A model generated the notes under the pieces. The model worked only from the letters and a program-made list of their open reading frames with translations. It did no database searches and was not told the origin of the DNA. The translations under genes were made by a program, and so were the position numbers. Positions 1,629 through 59,393 of a DNA stretch of 64,000 bases are shown here, piece by piece. The DNA is from Microbulbifer bruguierae (lineage in GTDB: Bacteria > Pseudomonadota > Gammaproteobacteria > Pseudomonadales > Cellvibrionaceae). The first letter of the stretch is position 1. Every line of letters begins with the position of its first letter. The stretch is from positions 2,172,001-2,236,000 of the forward strand of contig NZ_CP118605.1 in NCBI RefSeq assembly GCF_029869925.1, in the 5' to 3' direction.

Positions 1629-1690
1629 CCCACTACCTCCAACACCACACCCTCCAACACCACACCGGTGGGAGCCTGCTTGCAGGCGAA
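1531..1690. repeat. Three alternating REP-like palindromes at the malEF/malG junction
   Basis: A 23-bp palindromic motif starting gtaggagcctgcctgcagg occurs inverted at 1587-1609, forward with two changes at 1668-1690, and forward in degenerate form at 1531-1553. Between the last two forward copies lies a tandem duplication of about 15 bp (ctccaacaccacac, near 1637-1665). The alternating orientation is what REPIN/BIME clusters show in pseudomonads. The first two copies lie inside the malG reading frame. Confidence 0.7.
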
Positions 1691-1704
1691 TTGGTGGCGG
1701 TTAC

Positions 1705-5171: not shown

Positions 5172-5565
5172 GGGGCAGGCCTCTCTCATCGCGGTGGTGG
5201 TTGCAGTCACTGTTAGGACTGTCATTTTTTGGGGCGAATTTTGCCAGCGGTAACAGTCTGCCGCCACCTGGCGCTATCCGCCTCCCCCGGGGCCAGGGGG
5301 GATAAGCCGGGGCCAGCCACAAAAACTGAACAATAAATGAACAACGCATCTATTGCAAAAATCCACGCCACAAACCGGGCGATGGCGTTACTGCTCCCCG
5401 CCAAACAACACGACTGGCTCTCGCCGTCTAGTCACACGCCACCGATGCACTATTAGCGCTTTTATCCGCCCCAATTGCTTGCAAATTACACCCCTGTACT
5501 AAATTTAACGGGCGCAGCAGTAACGTGCACTCAGCAGTCAATAAGTATCCTAAGGACAAAGAGAT
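5172..5565. other. Divergent intergenic region between malK and the TolC-like gene
   Basis: This gap of about 394 bp must carry the promoters for both the leftward mal operon and the rightward secretion cassette. I see a good ribosome site (aaggacaaagag) just before the ATG at 5566. A weak candidate promoter (ttgctt 5475-5480, tactaa 5497-5502, 16-bp spacing) precedes it. No palindromic operator or RNA gene is evident. Confidence 0.3.
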
Positions 5566-7137
5566 ATGCGCCTGGCTCCCCTCGCCGCGTTCAGCCTTAC
5601 CGTGGCAACCATTGCCGCTTGCTCTGTCACCCCCGAAGCAATCGATGAAGCCAGCGTGGACCAACGAGCCAGCACTGACTGGATGACGGTGTTCGGCAAT
5701 CAGCAACCGGTTACCGGTCCGATTGACCTCAACGAAGCGATTGCCCGCGCCATCGCCTACAACATGGACAACCGCCTCAAACTGATGGAGGCGGTGGTCG
5801 CCAACCGCAACCTGCGACTGTCCCGCTGGGACATGCTGCCAGAAATTGCCGCCAGCGCCGGCTACCACCATCGCAACAAGCAGCACTTTGCCTCCAGTGA
5901 GGACGTCAACGGCAACCAGTCCCTGGCCCAGTCCACCTCCCTGGACAAAACCTACAGCACCGCGGGGCTGGAACTGTCGTGGAATGTGCTGGATTTCGGC
6001 ATCAACTACCTGTCGGCCAAACAGGCCGCGGACGGGGTGATGATCGCCATCGAGCGTCAGCGCAAATTGATGCACAACGTCATCATGGATGTGGAGTACG
6101 CCTTCTGGATGGCCGCCGCCGCCCAGCGCGCCCACACTCAGCTGCCCGGGCTGATCGAACAGACCCACCGCGCGCTGGAGAAATCCCGCCAAAGTGCCGA
6201 GCGCGGCCTGCGCCAGACCGAGGCCAGCCTTTCCTACCGCCGCGACCTGCTGGACCTGATGCAACAGCTGCTGGCCCTGGAAGCGGACATGTTCAACGCA
6301 AAAATGGAACTGGCGTCGATGATGGGTCTGCCCCCCGGGACAGAGTTCACCGTCAGCGCCAGCCAGAGCGATATCCTGCGCAGCCCGTTTGCGGAAATGA
6401 GTGTGCCGGAGCTGGAGCAGTACAGCCTGCGCAACCGCCCGGAACTGCTGGAAGAAGACTATCGCGAGCGCATCGCCGCCACCGAAATCCGCAAGGCCTG
6501 CCTGCAACTGCTGCCCGGCCTGGAATTGCGCACCGGCTATTTCTACGACGACAACAGCTACCTGCTGTACAACGACTGGGCCGAAAGCAGTCTGAGGCTG
6601 ACCTGGGACCTGCTCGGCACCGTGGTGGCCGGCCGCGATCTGGTGGGCTACGCCCGTGACAGTGAGCGCCTCGGCGATGTGCGCCGCGCCGCGCTCACCG
6701 TGGCAGTACTCACCCAGGTCAACCTGGCCTACAGCCACATGCGCCGCGCACAGCTGAATCACGGTTATGCCGAAGAACTGGCAGACATCGACGGCGCCAT
6801 GGCGAGCCAGTCCCGCGCCCGCTGGCAGTCCAGCCAGGGCACCGAACTGGAAACCATTCACGCCGCCACCCAGGCCCTGCTCTCGAATGTGGAGCGCGAT
6901 GCCAGCTATGCCGACTGGCGCAGCGCCAACAGCCGCCTCGCCAACGCCGTGGGCTTCCAGCCGGAGTTTTATATCGACTACCGCCAGCCGCTGGAGGTTA
7001 TCGAGCAGCAGGTAGCAGACATGCGCACCCAGGGCGCGAGCATGGAACTGTTGCCGGTCGGCGGGTACAACTCGGACGGCGCCGAGAAACGCGAGGCGGA
7101 AATCCGTGAAGACGGGCTGGATGCCGCTTACTGGTAA
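5566..7137 (+). CDS. TolC-like outer-membrane channel lipoprotein
   Basis: This is the likely outer-membrane exit duct of the cassette. The 523-residue product starts with a lipoprotein signal (TIAAC-S, acylated Cys near residue 19). Two related halves of the outer membrane efflux family follow, rich in long amphipathic helices (IERQRKLMHNVIMDVEYAFWMAA; VAVLTQVNLAYSHMRRAQLNHG) with strand segments such as AGLELSWNVLDFG and SSLRLTWDLLGTV. The second half carries the typical ELEQYSLRNRPEL region. The C-terminus is charged and extended (about 50 residues after FQPEFYIDY). Lipidated TolC homologues usually serve RND or type I-like exporters; here the downstream genes supply three HlyD-type adaptors but no RND pump and no ABC ATPase. 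Start: ATG 5566 behind AGGACAAAGAG. Confidence 0.88.
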   Translation: MRLAPLAAFSLTVATIAACSVTPEAIDEASVDQRASTDWMTVFGNQQPVTGPIDLNEAIARAIAYNMDNRLKLMEAVVANRNLRLSRWDMLPEIAASAGYHHRNKQHFASSEDVNGNQSLAQSTSLDKTYSTAGLELSWNVLDFGINYLSAKQAADGVMIAIERQRKLMHNVIMDVEYAFWMAAAAQRAHTQLPGLIEQTHRALEKSRQSAERGLRQTEASLSYRRDLLDLMQQLLALEADMFNAKMELASMMGLPPGTEFTVSASQSDILRSPFAEMSVPELEQYSLRNRPELLEEDYRERIAATEIRKACLQLLPGLELRTGYFYDDNSYLLYNDWAESSLRLTWDLLGTVVAGRDLVGYARDSERLGDVRRAALTVAVLTQVNLAYSHMRRAQLNHGYAEELADIDGAMASQSRARWQSSQGTELETIHAATQALLSNVERDASYADWRSANSRLANAVGFQPEFYIDYRQPLEVIEQQVADMRTQGASMELLPVGGYNSDGAEKREAEIREDGLDAAYW

Positions 7138-7201
7138 ACGCCATCGCACTCAATGCATGCAGACGTTCGCAGTCCGACGGTAATGATGGTCGCAATGTAC
7201 G

Positions 7202-7225
7202 AGACACTCTGAGGATGGAGTGTCT
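7202..7225 (+). promoter_or_regulatory. Hairpin enclosing the start codon of the adaptor gene
   Basis: agacactc (7202-7209) and gagtgtct (7218-7225) are perfect 8-bp complements. The 8-base loop tgaggatg contains both a Shine-Dalgarno-like GAGG and the ATG at 7215. If formed in mRNA it would occlude initiation there. Directly after it, gtatcc repeats several times between 7248 and 7280. Confidence 0.45.
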
Positions 7226-8192
7226 GTACCAGACCGAGGTAGAGGTATCCGTGGTAGAAGTATCCGTAGCAGTATCCGAGGGAGAAGTCTCTGATTCCGG
7301 GGTGAACCAACCTGCTGTAGCGGCAGCGCGACATCCCCTGCCCGCGCTCATTTTCGCAGCCGCGCTCACCCTGTGTTGCGCTCTGCCAACCCCGCTGCAG
7401 GCGCACAGTGCCAGCCAGCCTTCCGTCGACAGCAATCACACCGCCCCCGCCAAACTCAACGCCCTCAGCCGGGTACAGCTTTCCAGCGAACTGGCCGGAC
7501 GCATTACCGAAGTGCGCCTGCGTGCCGGCGACCGTTTCGACAAAGGCGATCTGCTGGCGCGTTTCGACTGCACCGAACTCAAGGCCGAACTGGAGGGCGC
7601 CGACACCCGCCGCGCCCTTGCCCGCCGGCAACTGGATGCCAATATTTCCCTCAAACAGCTGGGCGGCAATATCAGCGAGCTGGAAATGGTACAGAGCGAA
7701 TCACAGCTTGCAGAAGCCACCGCCAATACCAAAGTGCTCAAGCACCGCACCGGTTACTGCGAGGTGCGCGCACCTTTCTCCGGTTTTGTGATCAGTCGCA
7801 GTATCGAGCCCCACCAGCGGGTGGAAGTCGGTGCACCACTGCTGGAGCTGGTGGACAACCGGGGGCTGGAAGTGGAAGCCATCATCGATTCCGCCTGGCT
7901 GGAACACCTCTCCATCGGCGACACGTTCAGGGTCGTGATCAATGAAACCGGACGCGAGTACACCGCCACCCTGCAGCGGATAGTGCCGGTGGTGGATCCG
8001 GTTACCCGCACGGTGCGAGTGATCGGCAACATCGAAAAAACACCCGGCGAAATTTCCCCGCTGTCCGCCTCTGGCGCATTGCTGATTTCCGGGATGAGCG
8101 GCGAAGCGCACTTTGCTCTCGACCGCCCTGATGACAAATCCGCGGCACTGCTCGCGGACAGGCCATCCAACAAACGCGACGGAGCCGACTGA
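7215..8192 (+). CDS. Periplasmic adaptor subunit (HlyD/RND-type membrane fusion protein)
   Basis: The product (325 residues from ATG 7215) has a lipoyl-like half (LSSELAGRITEVRLRAGDRFDKGDLLARFDC), a short helical hairpin and the second lipoyl half (CEVRAPFSGFVISRSIEPHQRVEVGAPLLELV), then a beta-barrel domain (VEAIIDSAWLEHLSIGD). This is the membrane fusion protein fold that joins an inner-membrane complex to TolC. The hydrophobic signal segment (ALIFAAALTLCCALPTPLQA) begins about 45 residues in. The preceding N-terminus (VEVSVVEVSVAVSEGEVS) comes from a short gtatcc tandem repeat and looks unlike protein-coding leader. A GTG at 7302 would give a normal signal peptide but lacks a good ribosome site, so the start is uncertain. 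It is the second gene of the cassette. Confidence 0.85.
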   Translation: MECLYQTEVEVSVVEVSVAVSEGEVSDSGVNQPAVAAARHPLPALIFAAALTLCCALPTPLQAHSASQPSVDSNHTAPAKLNALSRVQLSSELAGRITEVRLRAGDRFDKGDLLARFDCTELKAELEGADTRRALARRQLDANISLKQLGGNISELEMVQSESQLAEATANTKVLKHRTGYCEVRAPFSGFVISRSIEPHQRVEVGAPLLELVDNRGLEVEAIIDSAWLEHLSIGDTFRVVINETGREYTATLQRIVPVVDPVTRTVRVIGNIEKTPGEISPLSASGALLISGMSGEAHFALDRPDDKSAALLADRPSNKRDGAD

Positions 8193-8193
8193 C

Positions 8194-9498
8194 GTGGATG
8201 CGCGGCTGCTGGAAAAACTGAATCATTTTCTCGCGCTGGAAAACCGGCTGCGCAATGCCAGCAACCTGCAGCAGATCGCGCAGATTGCCAGCAGTGACAG
8301 TCAGCAACTGCTCGCGTTTGACAGCTGCCTGTTTTTTTCCGGCCCGCACCTGAAACTGATCGCCGCCTCCAATGTTTCCACCGTGGATGCCACCAGCAGC
8401 GAGGCCCAGGGATGGCGCGAACAGGTGCGCCGCCACTTCGCCGACGCCACCGCGCAACCGCCACTGCAACTGGAAATTCCCCCGCCGGAACACCACCGCA
8501 ATGAGGTCGCCAGCCAAACCCTGACGCTGATGCCACTGGGCAATAAAAACCCTGAAGGCTGCCTGGCCATACTGCGCCAGCGACGCTTCTCCGAACAGGA
8601 GTTGCAGGTGCTGCGGGAGCTGGCCGCTGCCGTGCATCAGGCGATACTGGCCCAGCGCGGTGCGCGGCGATTTTCCCTGCGCCGCTGGTGCCGTCGGCGA
8701 CCATTGCTGGTCGCCGCCGCCCTCGCCGCCATCGGCCTGATTCCGGTGCGCCAGAGTGTGCTGGCACCGGCTACCCTGGCGGCGATAGAGCCGCGTATTG
8801 TGTCTGCGCGCACCGATGGTGTCGTGCGGGAAATCGTGATTCCACCCAATGCCCCGGTGCAAAGTGGACAGCTGCTGTTCACCCTGGAAGATGCAGAGGT
8901 CACCGCAGAAATCGACCGTGTGCAGCAGGAGATTGTGCTCTACCAGGAGCGCCTGCGCATGACTCGCCAATACAATTTCCAGCAGGCCTCCGCGGGCCAC
9001 AAGCTGGCACAGGCGGAAACAGACCTGTCCATTCGCAAGCTTGATCTGGAATACCAGAACACCCTGCTGGAAAAAACCCGGGTAAAGGCGCCCGCCTCAG
9101 GTGTGGCCATTTATACCGACCCCGCCGAGTGGATCGGGCGGCGGATCCGCGCCGGTGAAAAAGTCATGGAAATCGTAAAGCCGGACGCGCGCCAGATTCA
9201 GATCGATCTGCCCACCGTGGATGCCATCGGCCTGCCACAACAGGCGCGCACGGTGTTTTATGCGGAATCCAACCCACTGGCGCCGATCGAGGGACAACTG
9301 CACTACCACAGTCTGCTCACCAGCGAGGGTGAAAACCTCCCCGCCAGTTACCGCCTGCTCGCCACCATTGACGAGGACCAGCCGCAGATTCCCATCAACA
9401 CCCGCGGTCACGCGCGCCTTTACGGTGCCCGTGTGCCTCTCATTTATTACCTGCTGCGCCGACCACTGGCCACCGCCCGCCGTTGGATCGGGGTGTAA
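8194..9498 (+). CDS. Inner-membrane HlyD-type adaptor with a cytoplasmic GAF-like domain
   Basis: A ~155-residue soluble N-terminus (LEKLNHFLALENRL ... SQQLLAFDSCLFFSG ... LTLMPLGNKNPEGCLAILRQ ... EQELQVLRELAAAVHQAI) reads like a GAF-type sensory domain. A basic stretch (RRWCRRR), one transmembrane helix (about residues 168-184) and a HlyD-type periplasmic part (ARTDGVVREIVIPPNAPVQSG; KTRVKAPASGVAIYTDP) follow. The GTG at 8194 is chosen because it follows ACGGAGCC by about seven bases and comes right after the upstream stop; an ATG at 8131 inside the upstream gene is possible. The domain order suggests an inner-membrane adaptor that could sense a cytoplasmic ligand or dock the cargo. The ligand is unknown, and the GAF assignment rests on pattern only. 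Confidence 0.8.
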   Translation: MDARLLEKLNHFLALENRLRNASNLQQIAQIASSDSQQLLAFDSCLFFSGPHLKLIAASNVSTVDATSSEAQGWREQVRRHFADATAQPPLQLEIPPPEHHRNEVASQTLTLMPLGNKNPEGCLAILRQRRFSEQELQVLRELAAAVHQAILAQRGARRFSLRRWCRRRPLLVAAALAAIGLIPVRQSVLAPATLAAIEPRIVSARTDGVVREIVIPPNAPVQSGQLLFTLEDAEVTAEIDRVQQEIVLYQERLRMTRQYNFQQASAGHKLAQAETDLSIRKLDLEYQNTLLEKTRVKAPASGVAIYTDPAEWIGRRIRAGEKVMEIVKPDARQIQIDLPTVDAIGLPQQARTVFYAESNPLAPIEGQLHYHSLLTSEGENLPASYRLLATIDEDQPQIPINTRGHARLYGARVPLIYYLLRRPLATARRWIGV

Positions 9499-9531
9499 TC
9501 GCAGCAGAGGTAAAGAAGTAGAGAGGTAAAC

Positions 9532-11811
9532 GTGCAGTCAACGCCATACGCCAACCAGCCCTTCATCGCGGCACCGCCTGCACACGCGGCCGGCACAGGC
9601 CCCACTTCGCCGCCGCGTACGGGCTGGCCGAAACTGCGCAGCGACCTGCGGTTTCACCGACTCGCGGAAGACGACGGCGAGACCGGCTGGATGCTGTACG
9701 ATCCTCTGCGCGGCCAATACCTGGAGCTGGGAGAGCTGGAATTGCTGGTGCTGCACCACTGGCACCAGGGCAGCGCGGAAAAAATCGCCCGCAGCATTGC
9801 CGCGGAACAGGGCTGCCGGCTGGAGCCGTCACAGGTGGAAGCCGTCGCCGGCTTTGTGCGCGACAATGAACTGTTGCAGAGCGAAAGTCTGCCGCTGCTG
9901 CAGAAACTGGCGGCGATCAGTCCACAACAACAGCGGCTGCAAAAACTGCAGCGCACCCTGTTCTGGCGCCGGCCACTGTTTACCCCGGAACTCAGCAGCC
10001 GACTGCTATTGCCCCTGGCCCGCGCCAGTCAATCGCCCTGGTTTTATGCGCTGTTGCTGGCAGCGGCCATTTTTTCGGCCATCTCCATCGGTCAGCACAG
10101 CGGTGAATTTTTTGCGTATTTTGATGCGAGCTGGAATGCCGCCGGCGCGCTGGTGTTTTTTCTCTGCTACCTGATCCTCAGTCTGTTTCACGAACTCGGG
10201 CACGCCAGTGTCGCGCGGCTCTATGGTGTGCGCGCCAACAGTGTCGGTGTGGGACTGATCGCGATGATGCCGATCATGTTCAGCGAAATTACCGATGCCT
10301 GGCGGCTGCCGCGCAAGGCGCGGCTGCATATCTCCGCTGCCGGCGTGCTGTTCGAAGCTGCCATTGGCGCCGCTGCCGCCACCACCTGGTGCCTGCTGGA
10401 CGACGGTCCATTGCGGGCGCTGATGTTCTACCTGTTCACCACCTCGCTGGTCAGCACCCTGCTGATCAACGCCAACCCGCTGATGAAATTCGACGGCTAC
10501 TATCTATTGAGCGATTTCACCGGGGAAAAAAACCTGCATCAAGGCGCGAGTACAACCCTGCGGCACTGGCTCTGGGTCCAGTTATTGCGCGGACCCAAGC
10601 CGGCGATCAGTCGCCGGCAGAAACTGCTGGTGCTGTTCGGCCTGACAAGCCTTATCTACCGCACTTCGGTGTTCGCACTGATCAGTTACGGCGCCTACCA
10701 GCTGCTGTTCAAGGCCGCCGGAATTCTGATTCTGGTGCTGTGCCTTTTTCTGCTCCTGGTATTGCCGGCGGTACGGGAAGCGCGCGCGTTTATTGCTTTT
10801 GTGAAAGAACAAAACGAACAGAAAGTACAGAAAGAACAGCCGCAATCCCAAGCCATGACTAGCCAGAACACGGATAACGGCACACCGCCGACACAACCAT
10901 CGCGGTCTGATTTTTTCGCGTTCGTGCAGCTGCTCAATCCGAAATTTATTTTCGCATTTTCGGCGTTACTGGCGGTCCTGCTGATTCCCCTGCCATGGCC
11001 GGTACAACTTCCAGCCAGCACCTATTTTTCCGCCCAGCAACAGGTCAAATCCCCCGCCGGCGCCGTGTTGGAAAAACTGGCTCTGGAGCCCGGCGGCACG
11101 GTGGTCTCGGGCAGTGTGATTGCACAGCTGCGCGACACCGAACTGGATTACCGTATCGCGCGCACGCAACAAGAGCTGGGAATGCTCAACCGCCGCCAGC
11201 AAAGTGACGGTTTTGCCGAAAGCCTGGATGCCCTCGACGGGGTCTATCTCCAGGATCTGCTCAGCAAGCGACAACTGCTACACGCGCTGCTCACCGAGAA
11301 AAAGCAGCTGGAAATCGTCGCCAAGGTTGCCGGCACCGTGGACTGGGTATCACCAGGGTTGCACGAAGGACAATACCTCGAGGTCAACCAGCCCTTCCTG
11401 TCCATCGCCCGCCGCGACAGTCTCGCCGGCCGCGCCTACGGCAAAGCCCAGCAGCTGGCGCGCCTGCAACAGAACTCCGGGCAGCCGTTGCGAGGCAAAT
11501 TGTTTGTGCAAGGCCAGTGGCTGCCGCTGGCGGCCACCGTGCACAGCGCGGAACAGATTGCCTCGCGCCGTATCCAGGACCCGGCGCTGGCCTCCGCCTA
11601 CGGCGGTCCGCTGCAGACAGTGGCGGACGAGCCGGAACGCGCGGCGGAAGCACTGCATATTCTCTCGTTCACCTTCGATGCCGACGCCCGCGCGACATTG
11701 AACAGCGCCCAGCGCAGCGGTTATCTAGTACTGCTCGGCAAGCCCACCAGCCTGCTGTCTCTGGCGGTGGATCGTGTGGCCGGCGTATTGATTCGGGAAA
11801 GCGGCGTGTGA
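9532..11811 (+). CDS. PqqD-like / M50 site-2-type metalloprotease / HlyD fusion protein
   Basis: Starts with GTG 9532 behind GAGAGGTAAAC. Three parts are visible in 759 residues. Residues about 35-115 resemble the PqqD winged-helix fold that binds leader peptides (MLYDPLRGQYLELGELE). Residues about 175-420 are a polytopic M50 core with the zinc motif HELGH (His220, Glu221, His224) and the distal NPLMKFDGYY motif (Asp321). After a Gln/Glu-rich linker and another membrane helix, residues about 490-700 form a lipoyl/HlyD-like periplasmic domain (VKSPAGAVLEKLALEPGG). M50 enzymes cleave substrates in or near the membrane. Fusion to an adaptor suggests that cleavage is coupled to export, with the giant downstream protein as the obvious substrate. 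All zinc ligands are present, so it is probably active. Confidence 0.87.
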   Translation: MQSTPYANQPFIAAPPAHAAGTGPTSPPRTGWPKLRSDLRFHRLAEDDGETGWMLYDPLRGQYLELGELELLVLHHWHQGSAEKIARSIAAEQGCRLEPSQVEAVAGFVRDNELLQSESLPLLQKLAAISPQQQRLQKLQRTLFWRRPLFTPELSSRLLLPLARASQSPWFYALLLAAAIFSAISIGQHSGEFFAYFDASWNAAGALVFFLCYLILSLFHELGHASVARLYGVRANSVGVGLIAMMPIMFSEITDAWRLPRKARLHISAAGVLFEAAIGAAAATTWCLLDDGPLRALMFYLFTTSLVSTLLINANPLMKFDGYYLLSDFTGEKNLHQGASTTLRHWLWVQLLRGPKPAISRRQKLLVLFGLTSLIYRTSVFALISYGAYQLLFKAAGILILVLCLFLLLVLPAVREARAFIAFVKEQNEQKVQKEQPQSQAMTSQNTDNGTPPTQPSRSDFFAFVQLLNPKFIFAFSALLAVLLIPLPWPVQLPASTYFSAQQQVKSPAGAVLEKLALEPGGTVVSGSVIAQLRDTELDYRIARTQQELGMLNRRQQSDGFAESLDALDGVYLQDLLSKRQLLHALLTEKKQLEIVAKVAGTVDWVSPGLHEGQYLEVNQPFLSIARRDSLAGRAYGKAQQLARLQQNSGQPLRGKLFVQGQWLPLAATVHSAEQIASRRIQDPALASAYGGPLQTVADEPERAAEALHILSFTFDADARATLNSAQRSGYLVLLGKPTSLLSLAVDRVAGVLIRESGV

Positions 11812-11894
11812 CGCTGCGGCAATTGCAGCAGTAACTGACAGTTTTTTTGCGCGGCGGGAAAGCCGTGCAATATCGACAAGGAAAGAGGTATCCC

Positions 11895-14800
11895 ATGGAG
11901 CTCAACGAGTTTTCCAGATCGTCCCTGGCCAAGGCCATCAACCTGCACGGCAGACAGCTCTCCAGTGTGCGCCGCGCGCTGGAGAAACGGGTTCTGCTGG
12001 ATGCCACCATCGCCGCGGATGCCAGCCAGTCCCTCAGCCATGGGGACAGCGATAACGGGCCTGTGGACAGTGATGCAGGTCAACATGCCAAACAGGATCA
12101 GAGCGACAAGTCCGCCACTCAGTACGACGGCGACAAGCAAACCATCAACGGCACCGTGACTGATACGAATCAGCGCAACGAACTGGTAGTGATCGACCTG
12201 CAACTGGATCAGGCCCAGGCCCTGATCGACGACCTGTTGCAACAGGCCAGCGACGTCGTGCAAGGGGAAGATTCCCTGCAACTCACTATCGGCGATCGCG
12301 TTGTCACCCTGCTCACCCTGGACGCCAGCGACAGTCTGCAGACCGTAACGGACTTTTTGCAGGATGCCAGCGCACAAAGCGGCACCACCTTTGACGCCGT
12401 ACACCTGATTTCTCACGGCGGCGCCGGCGGTATCGACGTGGGTGGGGAGCAACTGTCACTGGACTCCCTCAGCAGTGCGGGCGACGCCGGCAGCCACACG
12501 GCCCAGCTGCAAAACTGGGCCGCGAGCCTCAGCGCCGGTGCGGATATCCTGATGTACGGCTGCAATACCGGTTACAGCCTTACCGGGGAACATTTCATCC
12601 AGCAGGTTGCCGATCTCACCGGCGCCGATGTGGCCGCTTCCGATGACCCCACCGGCAGCGCCCTGCGCGGCGGCGACTGGGATCTCGAGCAGCAACAGGG
12701 CGAAGTGGAAACCGATATTGTTTTTTCCAAACTGCTGCAGGGCACCTGGGAAGGGTTGATGGTGGCGACGCCCTCGGCCACGGTGGATGCACCTGCCGAG
12801 GACTTTATCAACGAGTCCACCGATATCGGCTTTTCTTTTGAAAACGACGGCGACACAGAGGGCTATGGCCCGTTTATGGATATTGTCGCCGGCCCGGGGC
12901 TGGAGCTCGGCAGTGTCAGCGGTCTCGACGGCGCCTCGGTAATTACCTACACCTACGAAGACGGCCAGTGGGTAGACAGCGACGGCAATGTAGTGGAGTA
13001 CCACCCCTACGACTTCAACCAGACCGGCGCCATTCCACTGCCCCCCGGTGAGGAAGGGGCCACCTGGTATGCGATTCAGCTGCCGTTCGGTTCGTTTTCG
13101 CCGGACCAGCCGTCGTTCGATTTCAATGTCTCCGCGATTCTCGATGAAGCCGCCGGCGCCCTTGTCGGGGTTCCGATTCCCATCTGGGTGCGCCCGGGCT
13201 TTGCCTACGGCAACGACCCGCTGAACAACCCGGATGTAGACCCGCCGATTATCGGCAACCCGATCGAAACGGAAATCACCCCCACCGTGATTGATGTAGA
13301 TAAAGTCGCCCAGGACGGCGATGGCGATAACATTTCCATCGGTGATGATGGCGAAACCGTTACCGGCCCCAGTGAACCGGTGGTCTGGCAGGTGACGGTG
13401 GATATCGCCAATCTGTCGACGATCGAAAATCTCGTGGTCACCGAGGATGTTCCCAATAATTTCTACTACCAGACGGGTTCCGTTACGGTCACCGACGCCG
13501 CCGGCAATACCCTGGTGCCGGCTCCGGCTCCAAATGCAGATTACATCCTCACCGAGCCCCCTGCAGGCGCCAACAACGATGCGCAGCTGATCATCGAATT
13601 TCTCAACCCCATCCAAGGTACCGAAGACAGCAACGATATTGTCATCACCTATCGGGGCTACGTGCCGGCCTTCGATGCCGATGGCAATCCCATCGTGATC
13701 AACGATGGCGCCGACGATGTGGTGCGCAACACCGCCAGTGTCACCGGCGACTACCAGGACCAGACCGTCAGCGACGACGATGACGCCATCATCGTCGCCG
13801 TGGCCACCGCACTGCAGAAAGACGTTGCGATCATCGACCCCATCGGCGATACGGATTACACCCCGGGCGACACGGTGGAATACACCCTGACCCTGGAAAT
13901 TTCCGACTATATGCAACTGGCGGATCTGGTGCTGACGGACAGTGTCGGCGATGGCATGGAAATCGATCCGGACTCTTTTTCCTTTGAACTGTTTGTGAAC
14001 GGCGACAGCTTCGGACCAGGCGCTTTCGGCGACGGCAATGTAACGGTGACGGAAAATGCCGGTGACGGCAGTACCGATATCAGTATCGACCTGTCGCAAG
14101 AACTGATCGACCTCGGTATCAGTGCCGATGGCAGCCTGGACGGCGACATGTTTTCCGACAATGACATCGACGGCACCACCACCGTGGTGATCACCTATGA
14201 GGGCACCATCCGCGAGAACTATCTCGCCACCGGCGGGCCGGTAAACATTCTGGATGTCATCAACAACCAGTCCACCGTCACCGCGACCGATACCACCACC
14301 GGAGCCGAAGTCGACAACGAAGGTGATGCGAGCCTTACCATCGGCACGGCCAGTTCCAGCAAGAGCGTCTATGCCATTGACGACAGCACCGACCCCGACG
14401 ATCTCACCGATATCGCCGTCGGCCAGACGGTAACTTTCGCCATTGATATCAACCTGTCCACCCTGGACAACAACGGTCTGGTGATCACCGACTACTTGCC
14501 GCAGCCGGTGTTCGATGCCGTGGCCCCTACTTTTACCGACACCGGTGAGGGCACCACCATCCCCGGCATCAATGAGTGGGGCTTCGGCCCCGACACCGAC
14601 TTCGACAACTGGCCGGACGGCTATCTGGACGGAATCAACATCACCACCAGCGCCGACGACGGCAACAATTCCATCACCTGGAATTTCGACCCCATCGATC
14701 AGTTGGAGTCCATCGGCGGCCATGTGCAGCTGCTGTTTACGGTGCAGGTACAGGACCAGCCGTTTACCGACGGCCTGTTCCTGACCAACGTCGCCCAGGT

Positions 14801-17800
14801 CACCGTCAACGGCACCGATGAAACCCTCACCCTGCCGCCGGGCAATATTCAAATCGAAGTCGTATCACCGGATGTAAATGTCACCAAGGGCGTAGTCTCC
14901 ACCGGCGTCGACGACGGCGGTGTGTTCGATCCGGAGCCCCCGGGGCCGGTGGATTTCGCTGATGCCGGTACAGATCCCGTTCCAGGCACGCCGCCCTGGG
15001 GCGTCCCCGTCACCAGCGGTGACCTGGACAACCTGCCAATCGATTCGAATCTCAGCGACGTGGACGCCGGCGACACGGTGCGCTTTGCCATTACCCTGGA
15101 AAATACCGGCGGTTCCGATGCCTTCAATCTGGTCATCAGCGACACCCTGCCGGACGGTTTCGAAATACCCCCGGACGGACTGAACCTGCAGGTCTACACC
15201 GGCGACGGCACCCAGATCGACTTTACCGGCAACCCGGAGGACCTGTTTGGCGGCGGTATCACCCTGGTCGATCCTTCCGCTGACGAGGGCGCACTGAATG
15301 AGGGCCGCGACCCGGATAGCGGCGACACCACCGATGGCAGCAACATCATCATCATCACCTACGACCTGATCGCCACCGACGCGGTACAGCCGGGCCAGGA
15401 AATCGAAAATACGGCACAGCTGGAACAGTATGGCGGCGTGGATGAGGGCAACGACTACACCGAGGGCAACTCCAACCTCAACTGGCAGGACGACGCCACC
15501 GTCACGGTGAAAGAAAACGCGGTGGACAAAGCCCTCTTAGGCACCAACATCGATGGCCCCAATAACGCCAACGACGAGGCGGTGATCGGCGAGGTGATCA
15601 CCTACTCCCTGACCCTGACCATTGCCGAGGGGGTAACCCCGTCGGCCAGCGTCGTCGATACCCTGGACGACGGTCTGGTGTTTCTCGGTGTCACCAGTGT
15701 CACTTCCTCTTCCGGCGATATCGAAAATGGCAGTGACCTCCCCTGGGGCGAGAGCGACCTCAATGTCTCTACCAACGGCCAGCAGGTAACCTTCGACCTG
15801 GGCGACCTGGACAACATCAATCGCGATAACGCCGTCGACGAAACCATCACCATCGAATACGAGGTCCTCGTCGCCAACGACGTGGTGAACCAAAGCGGCG
15901 ACCAGCTGAACAACAGCGCGCAGTTTATCTGGGACAGCACCGATGACGGCGTCGACAACCCCACCGTCAACGACACCGATTCGGCGGAGGAGGTGACGGT
16001 CATCGAGCCGGACCTGCAGGTGGACAAAACCCTGACCAACACCCCGCAGCCGATCGACGCGGGTGATACGGTCGAATACACCATCGTGATTTCACACACC
16101 GGGTTCTCCGATACCGATGCCTTCGACGCGACCTTTATCGATACCCTGCCACCAGAACTGACCAACGTCATACTGGTCAGTGCCGAACTGGACGGTGCGA
16201 GCGTCTTCGATCTGTTTGAGGTCAACGGCAATACCGTTCAAACGGCCCCGGACCAATCCTTTGACCTGCCCCAGGGCTCGACCCTGACCCTGGTAGTCCG
16301 CGCGGATGTGGTCAACGACGTGGTGCTCGGTTCGGTGGTCAACAACACCGCCACCGTCGACTGGGAAAGCATCGACGGCGATGACCCCAACGAGCGCACC
16401 GGCGAGGACGGCGCCGGTGGCGCACTGAATGATTACGAAACCGACGACAGTTTCCAGTTTACCGTGGCGACGGTGGAAGCCGGCAAAACCATCGTCAGCA
16501 GTTCGGTGGAGGATGAATACAACGGACTCACCGAAGCGGTGATCGGCGAAGAGGTCACCTATCAGGCCAGTTTCGAAGTCCCCGAGGGTGTGGTGATCAA
16601 CGCCCAGATTCTGGATACCCTGCCGGCGGGGATGGAGTTCCTCAGCCTGGACAGCATCACGATCGGCGACGATATCGTCATTCAGAATGGCGGCTTCGGC
16701 GACCCGACCGTGGTCGTCAATCCCGACGGCACCACCAGTTTGGATTTCGGTTCCGCAACCGTCGAAAACGTCGGCACCGATGACGTCCCGGACATGATCA
16801 CGCTCGTGTACACGGTGCGGGTCACCAACGTCGAGTCCAACCAGGCCGGTACCGAGCTGATCAACAACGCCCAGTTCATTACCGACAATGGCACTTCGGA
16901 AGCCTCCACCACCGTCACCGTGATCGAGCCGGTGCTGACCATCGACAAGAGCGCCAACATCACCAACGGCGACAACGGCGACGACGTCAGTTACACCATC
17001 ACCATCACCAACCCGGACGACGGCAGCAGCACCACCGCCAACGACATCAGCTTCAGCGATCCGCTGCCCCCGGAGCTGACCAATATCACCTTCAGCGCGA
17101 TGCTGCAGACTGCCGACAGCACCACCGATGTTTCCGGCTTCTTCGACATTGTCGCCGGCGAACTGGTGCTGGATCCGCAGGCAGAACTCGATCTGGATCC
17201 CGGCAGCGTGGTGACCATCACCGTCAACGGTACCCTCGCCAACACCATCAGCGGCGACACCATCACCAACGCCGCGGATGTGGACTGGACCAGCCTGGAT
17301 GGGGACGATGACAATGAGCGCACCGGTGAAGGCGGCATCAACGATTACACTGCCAGTGACGACGTCGACATCACCGTGAACTCGCCGGAGATCGACAAGG
17401 TACTGGTATCGACCTCGCAGAACGACGACCTCAACGACGACACCGAGGCCACCATCGGCGAGATCGTCACCTTCTCGGTCACCCTGACCCTGCCGGAGGC
17501 GTCACTCACCGGCCAGCTCACCGATGTCTATGGCCCCGGGCTCGAATTTCTCGATCTGGTCAGCGTGACCGCGAGCAACCCCGACGCCATCGACTACAAC
17601 CCGGACGACATCGTTGTTACCGACGACCCGGCCAACAACACCGTGAGTGTCGACTTCGGCACCATCGTCAATACCGATACCGACAACAGCACCGACGAAA
17701 CCATCACCTTCACCTTCCGTGCGCGGGTTGCCGATATTCCCTCCAACGTGGACGGCACCACCCTCACGGATGAAGCCACCCTGGATTACGACACCGACGG

Positions 17801-20800
17801 CGACGGCACCCCGGATACCAGCATCAGTGACGACGCCACCGTGGACGTGGTGGAACCGCTGCTGGATCTGGACAAGGAATTGCTGAGCGACACACCGCTC
17901 ACCCTGGGCGGTATCGCCACCTACCAGATCACCCTTCAGCTGGATCCCGACAGCGGCGCCAATGCCTACAACGTCACCATCGAGGACGCGCTGCCGCCAT
18001 ACCTGTCCGCGGTGGAGAATGTGCAGATCGACGTGGCTGGCGGCTCGCCCACCATCGTCGACAATTCCACCGCCAACCTGCTGTCGCTGGATATCAGCGA
18101 GATCGATCCCAACACCGTCATCACCATCACCGTCGATGCGCGGGTAACCACTGACCCCTCCGCCGTGGGCCAGACCACCACCAACCTGGTGGAAGGCGAA
18201 TACACCAGCCTCGACACCCCCGAGGGCGGCGATGACAGCGACATCGAGCGGGAGTATGAAGTCGATGACGAAGTCACTGCGGAGATCGGTGCAGTGGACC
18301 TGGTGGTCGACAAGGATGACGGCGGTATTACCGCGGTGCCTGGTGGCGATATCGTTTACACCATCGACTATGAAAACGCCGGCAATATCGACGCCACCGG
18401 CGTGGTCATCACCGAATCCCTGCCGGAATATGTGACCTTCGATCCCGCCGCCAACCCCGGCTGGGTGTTGAATGGCGATACCCTGACCTATGACATCGGC
18501 GACCTGGCCGCCGGTGAAACCGGCAGTATCGAGCTGGTGGTTACCGTCATCGATCCGCTGCCCACAGGCGTCGAGGAAACCAACAACACGGTTTCCATCG
18601 ACGGCGACGAAAGCAACGGCACCGATCCAACCCCCGACAACAATATCGACACAGACGTCACCCCACTGGAAGCCGCACCGGATTATGTGATCGACAAGAT
18701 CGAGAACTTCGAGGATCCGGCCAACCCCGGCGACACCATTTCCTGGACCATTGAAGTCACCAACGAAGGCAATCAGGACGGTACCGGCGTAGTGGTCACC
18801 GACTCCCTGCCGGACACCAGCCTGTTCAATAATTTCACCGCCAGCGACGGCGGTGTTATCGACCTGGGCGCGGGTACCGTCACCTGGGAAATTGGCGACA
18901 TGGCGGTTGGCGACAGCTACACCTTCACCCTGAGTGCGGTGGTCAACGAATCGGTGCCCACGGATATTCCCACCCAGATCAACAGTGTGGTGGTGGAAGA
19001 TGACGGCACCAACGGCGAGGACCCGACCCCGGACAACAACCGCGACGACGAAGACTTCGACATCGCCTATGTGGATCTCGCCATCGACAAGGACGATGCC
19101 GGCGTGACCGTCGAACCCGGCGATACCCTGGTCTACACCCTGGATTACGCCAACAACGGCACCGCCGATGCCACCGGTGTGGTGATCACCGAATCCCTGC
19201 CGGAATACGCCACCTTCGATGCCGGCAGCTCCACCGCCGGCTGGATCGACAACGGCGACGGCACCTTCAGCTTCGAGGTCGGCGACCTCGCCGCCGGGGA
19301 AACCGGCACCGTCGAGTTCGCGGTGATCATCGACGATCCCATCCCCAGCGGCGTGGAGGAAACCAGCAACACCACCAGCATCACCGACGACGGCGACCAC
19401 GGCCCGGACCAGAATACGGAAGACAATGACGACGATGAGGTAACGCCCATCGACGGGCGCCCGGATTATGTGATCGACAAAATCGAGCTGTTCGATGACC
19501 CCGCCGCCCCCGGGGAAACTATCAGCTGGGATATCGTGGTCACTAACGAAGGCAACCAGGATGGCACCGGCGTCGTGGTCACCGACACCCTGCCCACCGG
19601 CGACTTTTTTGATGCCGGCTTTATTGCCAGCGATGGCGGCATCGTGGATCTGGATGCCGGCACCGTGACCTGGAATATCGGCGACCTCGCCGCCGGCGAC
19701 AGCGTCACCCTGACCCTGACCACCACCGTCAATGAAGATGTACCGCCGGTGCTGCTGCCCACCCAGGTTAACTCGGTGGAAGTCACCGACGACGGCACCA
19801 ATGGGGAGGACCCGACCCCGGAAAACAATCGCGACGACGAAGAATTCGACATTACCCTGGTGGACCTCGCCATCGCCAAGGACGACGGCGGCATCACCAC
19901 CACCCCGGGCGGCTCGGTTACCTACACACTGCAGTATGCCAATATCGGCGGGTTTGATGCGGAAGACACCGTCATCACCGAGACGCTGCCGGACAACGTG
20001 ACCTTCGATGCGGCCAACTCCGATCCGCGCTGGGTGGATCAGGGAGACGGCACACTTACCCTGGATCTCGGCACGGTGGCGGCCGGTGAAAACGGCAGCG
20101 TCACCTTTACCGTGATCGTCGACGACCCGCTGCCCGCCGGTGTAGAGGAAATACTGAACGAAACCGAGATTGACTATGGCGGAGGCAATGGCCCGGATCA
20201 GAACCTGAGCAACAACACCGACGATGACACCACCCCGGTCATCGCCCAGCCGGATTATGTGATCGACAAGATCGAGAATTTCGACGACCCCGCCCACCCC
20301 GGTGACACCATCGAGTGGACCATCGAGGTTAGCAACCAGGGCAACCAGGACGGCACCGGCGTAGTGGTGACCGACACCCTGCCGGATACCACCCTGTTCA
20401 GCGAATTTACCGCCAGCGACGGCGGCGTGATCGACCTCGCGGCGGGCACCGTGACCTGGGACATCGGCGACCTGGCGGCGGGCGAATCCCTGACCTTCAC
20501 CCTCACCGCGGTGGTGAGCGATTCGGTGCCCACGGATATCCCCACCCAGACCAATACCGTGGTGGTGGACGACGACGGCAGCAACGGCGAAGACCCGACC
20601 CCGGACAACAACCGCGACGACGAAGATCTGGATATCACCTATGTGGATCTCGCCATCGACAAGGACGATGGTGGCGTGGACGGTGACAACCCGGCGGAAC
20701 CCGGCGACACCATCACCTACACCCTGGATTACGCCAACAACGGCACTGCCGATGCCACCGGTGTGGTGATCACCGAAAGCCTGCCGGACTACGTCACCTT

Positions 20801-22394
20801 CGACCCCGCCGACAACCCCGGCTGGGTACTGGACGGCGATACCCTGACCTTTGATATCGGCACCCTCGCCGCCGGTGAAACCGGCTCGGTCACCCTGGTG
20901 GTCACCGTCATCGACCCGCTGCCCGCCGGCGTGGAGGGCACCAGCAACAGCGCCAGTATCGAGGACGACGGCAATGTCGGCCCGGATCAGAATCTGGTGG
21001 ACAACAAGGACGACGAAGTCACCCCCATCGACGGTCGCCCGGACTATGTGGCGGAGAAAACCGAGAACTTCGAGGACCCGGTCAACCCCGGCGACCCGGT
21101 GTCCTGGACCATCGAAGTGCGCAATGAAGGCAACCAGGACGGCACCGGTGTGGTAGTCACCGACAGCCTGCCGGACACCAGCCTGTTCACCAATTTCAGC
21201 GCCAGCAACGGTGGCGTGATCGACCTCGCTGCCGGCACTGTCACCTGGAACATCGGCGACCTGGCGGTAGGTGACAGCGTGACCCTGAGCGTCTCCGCGG
21301 TGGTGAGCGACAGCGTGCCCGCCAATGTCGGCCCGCAGACCAATACCGTGGTGGTGGACGACGATGGCAGCAACGGCCTCGACCCGACCCCGGACAACAA
21401 CCGCGACGACGAGACCCTGGAAATCGAGTTCGTGGACCTGTTTGTGGACAAGGACCACGGCGACGCCGAACCCGGCCCCACCGACACCCTGGTATACACC
21501 CTGAGCTACGGCAATCTCGGCACCGCCGAGGCCAATGGCGTAGTGATTACGGAAACGCTGCCGCCGAACACCAGCTTCGATGCCGCCAACTCCAGTTCCG
21601 GCTGGGTGCAAAATGGCGACACCTTCACCTTTGACGTCGGCACCCTGGCCGCGGGGGAAACCGGCAGCGTCACCTTTGCGGTCACCATCGACTATCCCCT
21701 GGACGCCACGGTGCAGCAGATCGACAACACCGCGGTAATCACCGACGACGGCGGCCACGGGCCGGACCAGGACCTGGAAAACAACCGCGACGACGATGTC
21801 ACCGACCTGTTCAACCCCGGCCCCAATGTGGACAACATCACCCTGTCCCGGCTGTACCCGGAGTACATCTACCCGCCGCGGGAATGGGAGCGCCAGGCCC
21901 CGGAAATGCACGGCCGCCTGATCTCCAGAGAAACCCAGGACGTCACCGCCAACCTGCAGGGCGGGCGCAACGGCAACCACTTCGACCCGGCCTTCGGCAC
22001 CACAGACGGCCACCGCTACCCCAACGACTGGTCGCAGGTATTCCGCAACGACCTCAGCATCGAGACCGGTGCCGCGGGCAGTTCTGGTGAACCATCCAGC
22101 CCGCTGGAAATGGATGGGGACTTTGGCCGCTACCGCGCCAACTCCCTGTTCGGCGACTTCGAGCGCCCCGCCGCCAGCCCCGAATTGCCGAGCAGCCCGG
22201 ACATGGCCCCGGTCCCCGAGCCCCTGCCGGCGCCACTGCAGGAGGAGCCCGTCAACCTGATCATGGAGCGCCACCCGATGCAGCAGCAGTTGGACGACAT
22301 CGCCCGCGAGCTGAGTGAAGCGCGGGTATCGCCCCTGCTCGCCGCTTTGGCCGCGCTCACCGCCGAGGAAACCGGAACCGTCACCAGGAAATAA
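11895..22394 (+). CDS. Giant acidic DUF11-repeat surface protein with LEPR-XLL-like leader and DUF4347 domain
   Basis: A 3,499-residue protein, with ATG 11895 chosen over an upstream in-frame start because GAAAGAGGTA precedes it. There is no Sec signal. The N-terminus carries LEKRVLLDA (residues 29-37), which fits the LEPR-XLL motif of giant exported proteins. Residues about 95-285 match DUF4347, with a possible His-Cys dyad (His174 in HLISHGG, Cys223 in MYGCNTG) as in C14/CHAT-like folds. Next come at least ten longer DUF11-like domains, then nine shorter ones in a regular A-B alternation. Asp-rich segments (PDNNRDDE) suggest calcium binding. The C-terminus (about residues 3310-3499) is Pro-rich and then helical, with no RTX repeats or LPXTG signal. 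As last gene of the cassette it is probably the exported cargo, a large adhesin or surface-layer fibre. Confidence 0.86.
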   Translation: MELNEFSRSSLAKAINLHGRQLSSVRRALEKRVLLDATIAADASQSLSHGDSDNGPVDSDAGQHAKQDQSDKSATQYDGDKQTINGTVTDTNQRNELVVIDLQLDQAQALIDDLLQQASDVVQGEDSLQLTIGDRVVTLLTLDASDSLQTVTDFLQDASAQSGTTFDAVHLISHGGAGGIDVGGEQLSLDSLSSAGDAGSHTAQLQNWAASLSAGADILMYGCNTGYSLTGEHFIQQVADLTGADVAASDDPTGSALRGGDWDLEQQQGEVETDIVFSKLLQGTWEGLMVATPSATVDAPAEDFINESTDIGFSFENDGDTEGYGPFMDIVAGPGLELGSVSGLDGASVITYTYEDGQWVDSDGNVVEYHPYDFNQTGAIPLPPGEEGATWYAIQLPFGSFSPDQPSFDFNVSAILDEAAGALVGVPIPIWVRPGFAYGNDPLNNPDVDPPIIGNPIETEITPTVIDVDKVAQDGDGDNISIGDDGETVTGPSEPVVWQVTVDIANLSTIENLVVTEDVPNNFYYQTGSVTVTDAAGNTLVPAPAPNADYILTEPPAGANNDAQLIIEFLNPIQGTEDSNDIVITYRGYVPAFDADGNPIVINDGADDVVRNTASVTGDYQDQTVSDDDDAIIVAVATALQKDVAIIDPIGDTDYTPGDTVEYTLTLEISDYMQLADLVLTDSVGDGMEIDPDSFSFELFVNGDSFGPGAFGDGNVTVTENAGDGSTDISIDLSQELIDLGISADGSLDGDMFSDNDIDGTTTVVITYEGTIRENYLATGGPVNILDVINNQSTVTATDTTTGAEVDNEGDASLTIGTASSSKSVYAIDDSTDPDDLTDIAVGQTVTFAIDINLSTLDNNGLVITDYLPQPVFDAVAPTFTDTGEGTTIPGINEWGFGPDTDFDNWPDGYLDGINITTSADDGNNSITWNFDPIDQLESIGGHVQLLFTVQVQDQPFTDGLFLTNVAQVTVNGTDETLTLPPGNIQIEVVSPDVNVTKGVVSTGVDDGGVFDPEPPGPVDFADAGTDPVPGTPPWGVPVTSGDLDNLPIDSNLSDVDAGDTVRFAITLENTGGSDAFNLVISDTLPDGFEIPPDGLNLQVYTGDGTQIDFTGNPEDLFGGGITLVDPSADEGALNEGRDPDSGDTTDGSNIIIITYDLIATDAVQPGQEIENTAQLEQYGGVDEGNDYTEGNSNLNWQDDATVTVKENAVDKALLGTNIDGPNNANDEAVIGEVITYSLTLTIAEGVTPSASVVDTLDDGLVFLGVTSVTSSSGDIENGSDLPWGESDLNVSTNGQQVTFDLGDLDNINRDNAVDETITIEYEVLVANDVVNQSGDQLNNSAQFIWDSTDDGVDNPTVNDTDSAEEVTVIEPDLQVDKTLTNTPQPIDAGDTVEYTIVISHTGFSDTDAFDATFIDTLPPELTNVILVSAELDGASVFDLFEVNGNTVQTAPDQSFDLPQGSTLTLVVRADVVNDVVLGSVVNNTATVDWESIDGDDPNERTGEDGAGGALNDYETDDSFQFTVATVEAGKTIVSSSVEDEYNGLTEAVIGEEVTYQASFEVPEGVVINAQILDTLPAGMEFLSLDSITIGDDIVIQNGGFGDPTVVVNPDGTTSLDFGSATVENVGTDDVPDMITLVYTVRVTNVESNQAGTELINNAQFITDNGTSEASTTVTVIEPVLTIDKSANITNGDNGDDVSYTITITNPDDGSSTTANDISFSDPLPPELTNITFSAMLQTADSTTDVSGFFDIVAGELVLDPQAELDLDPGSVVTITVNGTLANTISGDTITNAADVDWTSLDGDDDNERTGEGGINDYTASDDVDITVNSPEIDKVLVSTSQNDDLNDDTEATIGEIVTFSVTLTLPEASLTGQLTDVYGPGLEFLDLVSVTASNPDAIDYNPDDIVVTDDPANNTVSVDFGTIVNTDTDNSTDETITFTFRARVADIPSNVDGTTLTDEATLDYDTDGDGTPDTSISDDATVDVVEPLLDLDKELLSDTPLTLGGIATYQITLQLDPDSGANAYNVTIEDALPPYLSAVENVQIDVAGGSPTIVDNSTANLLSLDISEIDPNTVITITVDARVTTDPSAVGQTTTNLVEGEYTSLDTPEGGDDSDIEREYEVDDEVTAEIGAVDLVVDKDDGGITAVPGGDIVYTIDYENAGNIDATGVVITESLPEYVTFDPAANPGWVLNGDTLTYDIGDLAAGETGSIELVVTVIDPLPTGVEETNNTVSIDGDESNGTDPTPDNNIDTDVTPLEAAPDYVIDKIENFEDPANPGDTISWTIEVTNEGNQDGTGVVVTDSLPDTSLFNNFTASDGGVIDLGAGTVTWEIGDMAVGDSYTFTLSAVVNESVPTDIPTQINSVVVEDDGTNGEDPTPDNNRDDEDFDIAYVDLAIDKDDAGVTVEPGDTLVYTLDYANNGTADATGVVITESLPEYATFDAGSSTAGWIDNGDGTFSFEVGDLAAGETGTVEFAVIIDDPIPSGVEETSNTTSITDDGDHGPDQNTEDNDDDEVTPIDGRPDYVIDKIELFDDPAAPGETISWDIVVTNEGNQDGTGVVVTDTLPTGDFFDAGFIASDGGIVDLDAGTVTWNIGDLAAGDSVTLTLTTTVNEDVPPVLLPTQVNSVEVTDDGTNGEDPTPENNRDDEEFDITLVDLAIAKDDGGITTTPGGSVTYTLQYANIGGFDAEDTVITETLPDNVTFDAANSDPRWVDQGDGTLTLDLGTVAAGENGSVTFTVIVDDPLPAGVEEILNETEIDYGGGNGPDQNLSNNTDDDTTPVIAQPDYVIDKIENFDDPAHPGDTIEWTIEVSNQGNQDGTGVVVTDTLPDTTLFSEFTASDGGVIDLAAGTVTWDIGDLAAGESLTFTLTAVVSDSVPTDIPTQTNTVVVDDDGSNGEDPTPDNNRDDEDLDITYVDLAIDKDDGGVDGDNPAEPGDTITYTLDYANNGTADATGVVITESLPDYVTFDPADNPGWVLDGDTLTFDIGTLAAGETGSVTLVVTVIDPLPAGVEGTSNSASIEDDGNVGPDQNLVDNKDDEVTPIDGRPDYVAEKTENFEDPVNPGDPVSWTIEVRNEGNQDGTGVVVTDSLPDTSLFTNFSASNGGVIDLAAGTVTWNIGDLAVGDSVTLSVSAVVSDSVPANVGPQTNTVVVDDDGSNGLDPTPDNNRDDETLEIEFVDLFVDKDHGDAEPGPTDTLVYTLSYGNLGTAEANGVVITETLPPNTSFDAANSSSGWVQNGDTFTFDVGTLAAGETGSVTFAVTIDYPLDATVQQIDNTAVITDDGGHGPDQDLENNRDDDVTDLFNPGPNVDNITLSRLYPEYIYPPREWERQAPEMHGRLISRETQDVTANLQGGRNGNHFDPAFGTTDGHRYPNDWSQVFRNDLSIETGAAGSSGEPSSPLEMDGDFGRYRANSLFGDFERPAASPELPSSPDMAPVPEPLPAPLQEEPVNLIMERHPMQQQLDDIARELSEARVSPLLAALAALTAEETGTVTRK
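15520..18290 (+). repeat. Three copies of a ~920-bp two-domain DUF11 unit (C-D type)
   Basis: Inside the giant gene, C-type domains begin near 15520 (KALLGTNID), 16480 (GKTIVSSSVED) and 17392 (DKVLVSTSQND). D-type domains begin near 16014 (LQVDKTLTN), 16937 (LTIDKSANI) and 17863 (LDLDKELLS). C domains share 'EA.IGE.VTY', and D domains share '..LPPELTN'. The pair recurs about every 910-950 bp. Confidence 0.7.
18298..21810 (+). repeat. 4.5 copies of a ~785-bp two-domain DUF11 unit (A-B type)
   Basis: A-type domains begin near 18298, 19074, 19860, 20645 and 21435 (DLAIDKDDGG; GVVITESLPEY). B-type domains begin near 18680, 19460, 20250 and 21038 (PDYVIDKIENFDDP; GNQDGTGVVVTDTLPD). The period is about 776-790 bp. 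Copies are much closer to each other than the C-D units are, which points to recent duplication. Confidence 0.85.
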
Positions 22395-37265: not shown

Positions 37266-37275
37266 GCTACCCCCC

Positions 37276-38220: not shown

Positions 38221-38235
38221 TTGGATATTCCTGAA

Positions 38236-39546: not shown

Positions 39547-39615
39547 ATGGTTTTCCTGAATGATTGAATGGAAACGCAGCCTCAGTCACAGAGGTCGCGC
39601 GAAAAATTCAATAAT

Positions 39616-40041: not shown

Positions 40042-40172
40042 GGAACTAGTGACCAGTGGTCGCGCGGTGAGTTCCAATTAAAGCAAATCGTGCACAGTGA
40101 CACAAAGCACTGGCAGCAGGATGCGCCAGCGATTAGCATAAAATAAATCGTTTTACCGTTTGTCCCGATCCG

Positions 40173-40892: not shown

Positions 40893-41043
40893 GCTGCATA
40901 CACGGCATCTACTGGCCACGAACAAACAGCGACACCAAGTCGTATGAAATAATATTCCAGCCCTCAAGCATGTCCGCAGACGACGCTGTTTGCCGGGATG
41001 CGCACTCGCCTGCCGTTGAACCGCCTCGCAATCCATTTACCCG

Positions 41044-42081: not shown

Positions 42082-42083
42082 TG

Positions 42084-43046: not shown

Positions 43047-43259
43047 CTCGCTTCCCAGTTATTACTTTACCGCGCGAACCCCTAAATATGCGGTGATTCC
43101 CAGGTGCGTCACAGAGTTAATTGGGCATAAAAATGGCTTTTATCAATTTTTACTACACAAGACGACAACCCCGAAATCAGCGCAGGGAACGAACGGGAAA
43201 CGCTGCAACCGGCAAACACATCTTGCTGTCGTGGCATCTTATAACTCCGATATTCCGAA

Positions 43260-59327: not shown

Positions 59328-59393
59328 AACGGCTATGTATCGCGCACCGCTGGGTAGCGGAGCGGGTGGCGAGCGCCACCCGTTGCGGGGCGA

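Follow-up and report, generated by a model that had tools for sequence, protein, structure and literature searches.

A five-gene HlyD-TolC cassette of Microbulbifer bruguierae as a candidate export and leader-processing route for a giant protein with a LEPR-type box

Introduction

Type I secretion of RTX adhesins of the LapA/LapB type brings together an HlyD adaptor, a TolC channel and a giant adhesin. A comparable combination was found in a five-gene cassette of Microbulbifer bruguierae, located in a 64,000-nucleotide stretch of contig NZ_CP118605.1 (positions 2,172,001 to 2,236,000, forward strand; assembly GCF_029869925.1) that is referred to here as the window. The cassette likewise encodes HlyD-type adaptors, a TolC-type channel and a putative giant adhesin, but unlike the LapA/LapB systems it has no ATP-binding cassette (ABC) ATPase, its cargo has no RTX match and its proposed tag is N-terminal rather than C-terminal. 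The inner-membrane pump of a resistance-nodulation-division (RND) tripartite system is also absent from the cassette.

A type-I-like locus linked to SecA_DEAD was described by Kamneva, Poudel and Ward in 2015 (PMC4452313), who proposed a role in secretion, with SecA as the ATPase and the M50 protein as the pore. In the sections of that paper covered here no cargo is named, and a search of its text found neither DUF4347 nor Pseudomonas. As described there, the locus resembles the cassette in encoding M50, GAF-HlyD and HlyD proteins, sometimes an OEP, and no ABC transporter; it differs in its secondary SecA_DEAD, which the cassette lacks, and the cassette has its TolC gene within and a cargo box that ends in D and not S.

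The fusion protein of the cassette also resembles the site-2 proteases of ribosomally synthesised and post-translationally modified peptide (RiPP) pathways that are fused to a RiPP recognition element (RRE), namely the daptide protease MpaP (as described in the part of PMC10036551 consulted) and, by NCBIfam, YydH/LiaK. In both, an RRE-like domain stands before an intramembrane zinc protease, with leader removal as the known or proposed task. Unlike those proteases, an HlyD half is fused here, the proposed substrate is a giant protein and not a short peptide, and the curated cut-offs were not reached. Finally, LEPR-XLL (LEPR-8K, NF012209) proteins have an LExR box near the N-terminus of a giant protein, as does the cargo described below.

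Results and discussion

The cassette and its giant cargo

Judged from sequence comparison and predicted folds, the five genes probably serve together as a route dedicated to exporting a single giant surface protein and processing its leader. All of the open reading frames (ORFs) that an earlier note on this DNA had placed at 5566–22394 were present and co-directional. By Pfam and NCBIfam searches, the first three encode a TolC-family channel, an HlyD adaptor and a GAF-HlyD adaptor, followed by a fusion of a protease with HlyD and by a giant cargo (Table 1). As it had also claimed, neither an ABC exporter nor an RND pump was among the five genes. The N-terminus of the channel showed a lipobox-like signal (TIAAC, by eye), and hydropathy analysis of the first adaptor gave a single N-terminal hydrophobic segment. 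The start of the GAF adaptor was set at 8194 rather than 8113 because a database copy has 434 residues.

The longest frame of the cargo gene (3,515 aa) contained one cysteine and 30 lysines, with 13 DUF11 stretches by Pfam and nine stretches of an isopeptide-forming domain by NCBIfam. The cargo had been described as having no Sec signal and no RTX tail; in agreement with this, its first 200 residues held no hydrophobic stretch (19-residue window) and no RTX match was listed in the Pfam and NCBIfam scans. Its assignment to LEPR-XLL was borne out in part. The sequence LEKRVLLDA does lie near the N-terminus, but it scored only 14 bits with NF012209 (cut-off 17), and the box is therefore regarded as a variant.

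Table 1. Features of the cassette and of its surroundings in the window
Feature	Position	Strand	Evidence or remark
TolC/OEP-family outer-membrane channel, 523 aa	5566..7137	+	PF02321, 99.7 bits (cut-off 22)
HlyD-type periplasmic adaptor, start codon uncertain	7215..8192	+	HlyD_3 66.7 bits; RND_mfp 110.8 bits, over cut-off
GAF domain, one transmembrane segment and HlyD half, 434 aa	8194..9498	+	GAF 24.1 bits (cut-off 22.4), HlyD_3 41.6
Fusion of RRE-like domain, M50 (site-2) protease and HlyD, 759 aa	9532..11811	+	Family searches and predicted fold
RRE-like (PqqD-fold) N-terminal domain, residues 30-116	9619..9879	+	Predicted fold
HELGH zinc motif, residues 220-224; third-ligand candidate D321	10189..10203	+	Sequence
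HlyD/MacA-like half, residues 470-742	10939..11757	+	Predicted fold
Giant cargo, 3,499 aa	11895..22394	+	Most likely start ATG 11895, behind AAAGAGG
LEPR-type box LEKRVLLDA	11979..12005	+	Sequence
DUF4347 domain of cargo	12183..12758	+	PF14252, 128.5 bits
C-terminal box MQQQL, pattern [FLMIYV]xxQ[LIVM]	22278..22292	+	Common to most clade-A cargo ends examined
ABC sugar-type importer	648-5267	-	Same window, outside cassette
Self-contained RND efflux operon: AcrB-family pump, own HlyD adaptor and OEP	34107-39546	-	12 kb downstream of cassette

The protease-HlyD fusion

Peptidase_M50 scored 26.2 bits on the fusion, just below its cut-off of 27.2, and was matched at E 0.05 in all 38 alignment members. 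Residues H220, E221, H224, N313, P316 and D321 were identical in 57 of 57 aligned fusion proteins, which thus all hold the HExxH motif and a distal aspartate. The nearest NCBIfam model for the protease was daptide_HExxH (141 bits), whose cut-off of 300 was not reached. Fold comparison of the predicted structure gave an RseP-like core and a MacA-like C-terminal half. The N-terminal domain was modelled separately because the HlyD half filled the fold lists of the whole model; predicted alone, its nearest solved folds were the leader-binding RREs of RiPP enzymes. A Pfam search of 38 relatives of the fusion listed no PqqD match, and the domain by itself matched nothing among PDB sequences at E 10 and gave only single, scattered matches in NCBIfam. 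The PqqD-like part proposed earlier is thus backed by a predicted RRE-type fold, without a match in sequence searches. The M50 core and the three HlyD halves of the cassette are supported too.

A 408-aa M50 ORF was also seen in L267, a locus of the same genus (G013), with HlyD and ABC-like ORFs some kb away; this may be a RiPP-type locus.

Association of the box with the machine

Loci of relatives were obtained by searching named genomes with an alignment of the fusion, and the best 80 of at least 594 confirmed loci were used. Alongside the fusion, and more often than by chance, GAF-HlyD was encoded in 77 of these loci, HlyD in 67 and TolC in 43, and 40 loci had all four (matches of at least 100 bits), counts that include many loci ending early at a contig end or at the 10-kb flank. 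A tree of 57 fusions was split at 100/100 into two clades, A, to which the cassette belongs, and B, and was split again in this way when G014 was left out.

The box pattern [LMIF]Ex[RK]x[LMVIFA][LFMYIV][DSN] was present in 37 of the 39 adhesin-like giants with a visible N-terminus from the 80 named and 10 unnamed clade-A loci, many of the 37 being Pseudomonas near-copies and hence not independent, compared to a background of 4/887 in other ORFs of 300–800 aa. These giants were picked by length and composition, a further 22 that were cut by the locus edge standing outside the 39; of the two without a box, one was a TolC frame and the other contained N bases. With a narrower pattern, 41 boxes were found in 40 of the 80 loci, all with D as the next residue, whereas 63 control loci of other genes had no box.

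Co-occurrence, a check proposed in the earlier note, was analysed in 145 evenly drawn genomes of the host's order, in which the box was scored within DUF4347 proteins. The clade-A protease (E 1e-40) was found in 22 genomes, DUF4347 in 35 and both in 19 (p 1.5e-11). When the protease of either clade was counted, DUF4347 was present in 26/36 genomes with it and 9/109 without (Fisher p 2e-13). The box was carried by 31 of 35 DUF4347 proteins from genomes with either machine and by none of nine from elsewhere (p 1e-6; n=44, with two DUF4347 domains in one protein of G023 counted once). It was followed by D in all 23 proteins from genomes with clade A only and by S in all six from genomes with clade B only. 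The LEPR box therefore tracks the machine across genomes, which supports the cargo-machine pairing put forward earlier.

This pairing bears on the explanation that the cassette serves in efflux or in the export of small (RiPP-like) peptides, with the giant gene lying beside it by chance. HlyD and TolC families usually serve efflux, the nearest NCBIfam model of the protease is that of a daptide leader protease, and in Pseudomonas genes resembling acetyl- and sulfotransferases are repeatedly found nearby. Against this, box and machine go together across genomes; their pairing in the loci and in the order sample rules out the giant gene as a chance neighbour, and the explanation as a whole, examined with a clustering of neighbouring ORFs of at least 90 aa and hence above the size of short precursor peptides, is considered very improbable.

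In mainly Pseudomonas loci (L012–L082), acetyltransferase-, tail-collar- and sulfotransferase-like genes lie between the protease and the giant (clusters of 18, 21 and 22 loci; names by eye), and modification of the cargo is a possible role for them.

By a simple rule, none of 22 box-bearing sequences had a signal-peptide-like start, whereas such starts were seen among box-less DUF4347 proteins (L156 and L258 by the rule; L166, L171 and L282 by eye), of which L156 and L282 come from genomes with the machine. Other box-less DUF4347 proteins had little sequence before the domain. By correlation, then, the route is set by the box and not by DUF4347 itself. A literature search found no paper linking LEPR or DUF4347 to the machine among the matches listed, most subscription journals lying outside its coverage.

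The C-terminal pattern of Table 1 was found within the last 60 residues of 28/37 clade-A ends, compared to a shuffled mean of 7.2, and in 91/930 internal windows; without the TolC frame of L016, the count is 27/36 cargo ends. As the pattern was derived on part of the ends, it was scored again on 22 held-out ends that exclude those and the L016 TolC, with 15 matches compared to a shuffled mean of 3.9; none of 2,000 shuffles reached 15. By eye, the box-less giants L261, L265, L258 and L282 ended in tails that were either barrel-like or Gly-rich, hydrophobic and basic, which suggests sorting by other routes. The clade-B cargos L251 and L254 shared a hydrophobic C-terminal segment (ALPAW or VLPAW, then DP) unlike the clade-A tails.

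The sister clade and its SecA

In clade B, a GAF-HlyD protein (609–640 aa), an M50-HlyD fusion and a SecA_DEAD protein (about 650–690 aa) were encoded together in 4/5 stretches examined around the second SecA genes listed below, with HlyD recognised in 3/5. This gene set is the locus of PMC4452313. The box of its cargo is followed by S, as in MEPRLLLSA of the Nitrospira genome of L032. By gene content and fusion phylogeny, the cassette is a SecA-less sister clade of that published, unexplained locus, and the cargo and signal are new proposals; they are offered for a secretion-like locus whose broader role was described, in the sections covered, as "completely unknown" (PMC4452313). The idea of a distinct route for giant adhesins has thus gained the pairing of box and machine, but the route is not wholly new, since the SecA-linked sister locus was published in 2015 (PMC4452313, as covered).

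Clade B was present in 15 of the 145 genomes of the order sample. A second SecA adjoined the protease in nine of these and was absent genome-wide from five; G014, whose protease lies on a 4.1-kb contig filled by the GAF and protease genes, was left out and not judged. With G014 set aside, repeated loss of SecA from the sister clade was dropped as a firm claim, as the best tree has two changes and the well-supported branches force only one. Among 71 cassette genomes searched for SecA_DEAD (22 genomes of the G series plus those of 50 of the 80 loci, with L051 left out; G023 and G147 look like one genome), a second SecA was found in five (G032, G164, G181, G182 and G185). Four of the five had the clade-B set around this SecA, and in the fifth it was on a short contig without the protease. 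The SecA of G167 was split over two frames.

These observations bear on a further explanation, in which SecYEG/SecA carries the giant across the inner membrane and the M50 protease merely releases it. The adjoining SecA_DEAD protein in 9/15 sampled clade-B genomes favours it, as does the presence of SecA in 71/71 and 26/26 genomes searched. It is weakened by the lack of signal-peptide-like starts in 22/22 LEPR-bearing sequences and by the box-less DUF4347 proteins that do have such starts, and we regard it as rather doubtful.

Beside the clade-B GAF gene, L185 and L188 encoded a small ORF of 102–114 aa with a common YANVCNV stretch, which may be DUF3467.

Energy source

The host genome (one contig, 4.48 Mb) encoded canonical SecA only. 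A weak match that might have been a second SecA was RecG (1,057 bits). Of the lone weak SecA matches (25–29 bits) in the genomes searched, this one and that of G012 were checked, the latter being a RecG relative. Neither a second SecA nor an RND pump (phmmer with the window's own pump) was found in the 80 loci. A gene cluster of eight loci that had been taken for SecA looks by eye like sensor kinases, and the RND pump downstream of the cassette is ruled out as the motor because 0/80 loci have an RND pump.

The earlier note had asked whether an ABC ATPase is conserved nearby. A LapB-like ABC exporter was found in 4/80 loci, within the stretches examined, and an ABC ATPase (query, the importer ATPase of the window) in 29/80, about half of these being Pseudomonas loci that have it at their far upstream end. 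The cargo might still leave by way of a type I ABC exporter whose gene lies elsewhere in the genome, with the cassette adding adaptors and trimming the leader. Five ABC-membrane proteins were found in the host genome, two of which were matched at E 1e-100 by LssB, a type I model. The first, at 1,103,220, is a LapB-type exporter (790 bits, cut-off 693) adjoined by an HlyD-like ORF and an untyped 494-aa ORF; the second, at 1,041,645, is a weaker match (367 bits, below cut-off) adjoined by an HlyD-like ORF. LssB-type ABC genes over the cut-off, with seven candidates scored per genome, were also commoner in genomes with clade A (15/22) than in the others (40/123; p 0.003), which counts against a clade-A route that dispenses with such exporters.

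On the other side stand the scarcity of LapB-like ABC genes in the loci, the lack of an RTX match in the cargo and two genomes that are 99 and 100% complete, G012 and G018. Both encode a clade-A fusion and a D-type LEPR cargo with one SecA each, and none of their nine ABC-membrane proteins scored over a type I cut-off. Eight of the nine best matched MsbA, MsbA-related, CydD or PglK models; the remaining one is a 307-aa piece of G018 that matched nothing at 1e-60 and is untyped. Because these genomes carry machine and cargo with no ABC protein over a type I cut-off and no second SecA, their gene content contradicts a universal need for either, and exit through an ABC exporter encoded elsewhere appears unlikely.

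Housekeeping SecA is our first guess for the motor, held tentatively, since in the sister clade a SecA gene frequently lies next to the same protease but is missing from some members. The proton motive force, or folding outside the cell, is a less likely source of energy, and a shared ABC exporter is an improbable one.

Proposed mechanism and significance

The mechanism of the earlier note has been sharpened, its leader-recognition step having gained support from the predicted fold and its pairing of cargo and machine from comparative analysis. In the cytoplasm, the RRE-like domain would bind the LEPR box in the way that RiPP enzymes hold their leaders, and the M50 core would then cleave the leader when it reaches the inner membrane. 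Three HlyD halves, one each from the fusion, the GAF protein and the remaining adaptor, may together form a periplasmic tube leading to the TolC-type channel, with the C-terminal QL box acting as a late signal or a retention element. In the weakest step, the push would be supplied by a motor that is not part of the cassette, with housekeeping SecA as the likeliest one. We tentatively propose, as a reading about as open to doubt as to belief and leaning to doubt, that the LEPR box is a new export leader read by a RiPP-type domain in a membrane protease; that this protease also forms the inner-membrane section of an HlyD-TolC conduit; that the conduit occurs in two clades with D and S boxes; and that clade A has no dedicated ATPase and runs on housekeeping SecA or the proton motive force.

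The LEPR-XLL box would thereby gain a function. If this holds, export of proteins thousands of residues long has recruited a leader reader of the RiPP type, a secretion system need not have a motor of its own, and short boxes could serve to assign giant adhesins to their routes. The question of energy also becomes testable, by comparing clade A with clade B members that have the second SecA and with those that do not.

Other features of the window

A heavy-metal P-type ATPase is encoded near the RND operon (region 34107–45895, minus strand). A 445-aa protein at 48094–49431 (plus strand) had four stretches matching the DnaT DNA-binding domain. Additionally, a second surface-protein locus at 50758–60479 (minus strand) encoded an 814-aa SpaA_4-matching protein, a 2,042-aa OmpA/DUF11 protein and a 361-aa DUF11 protein.
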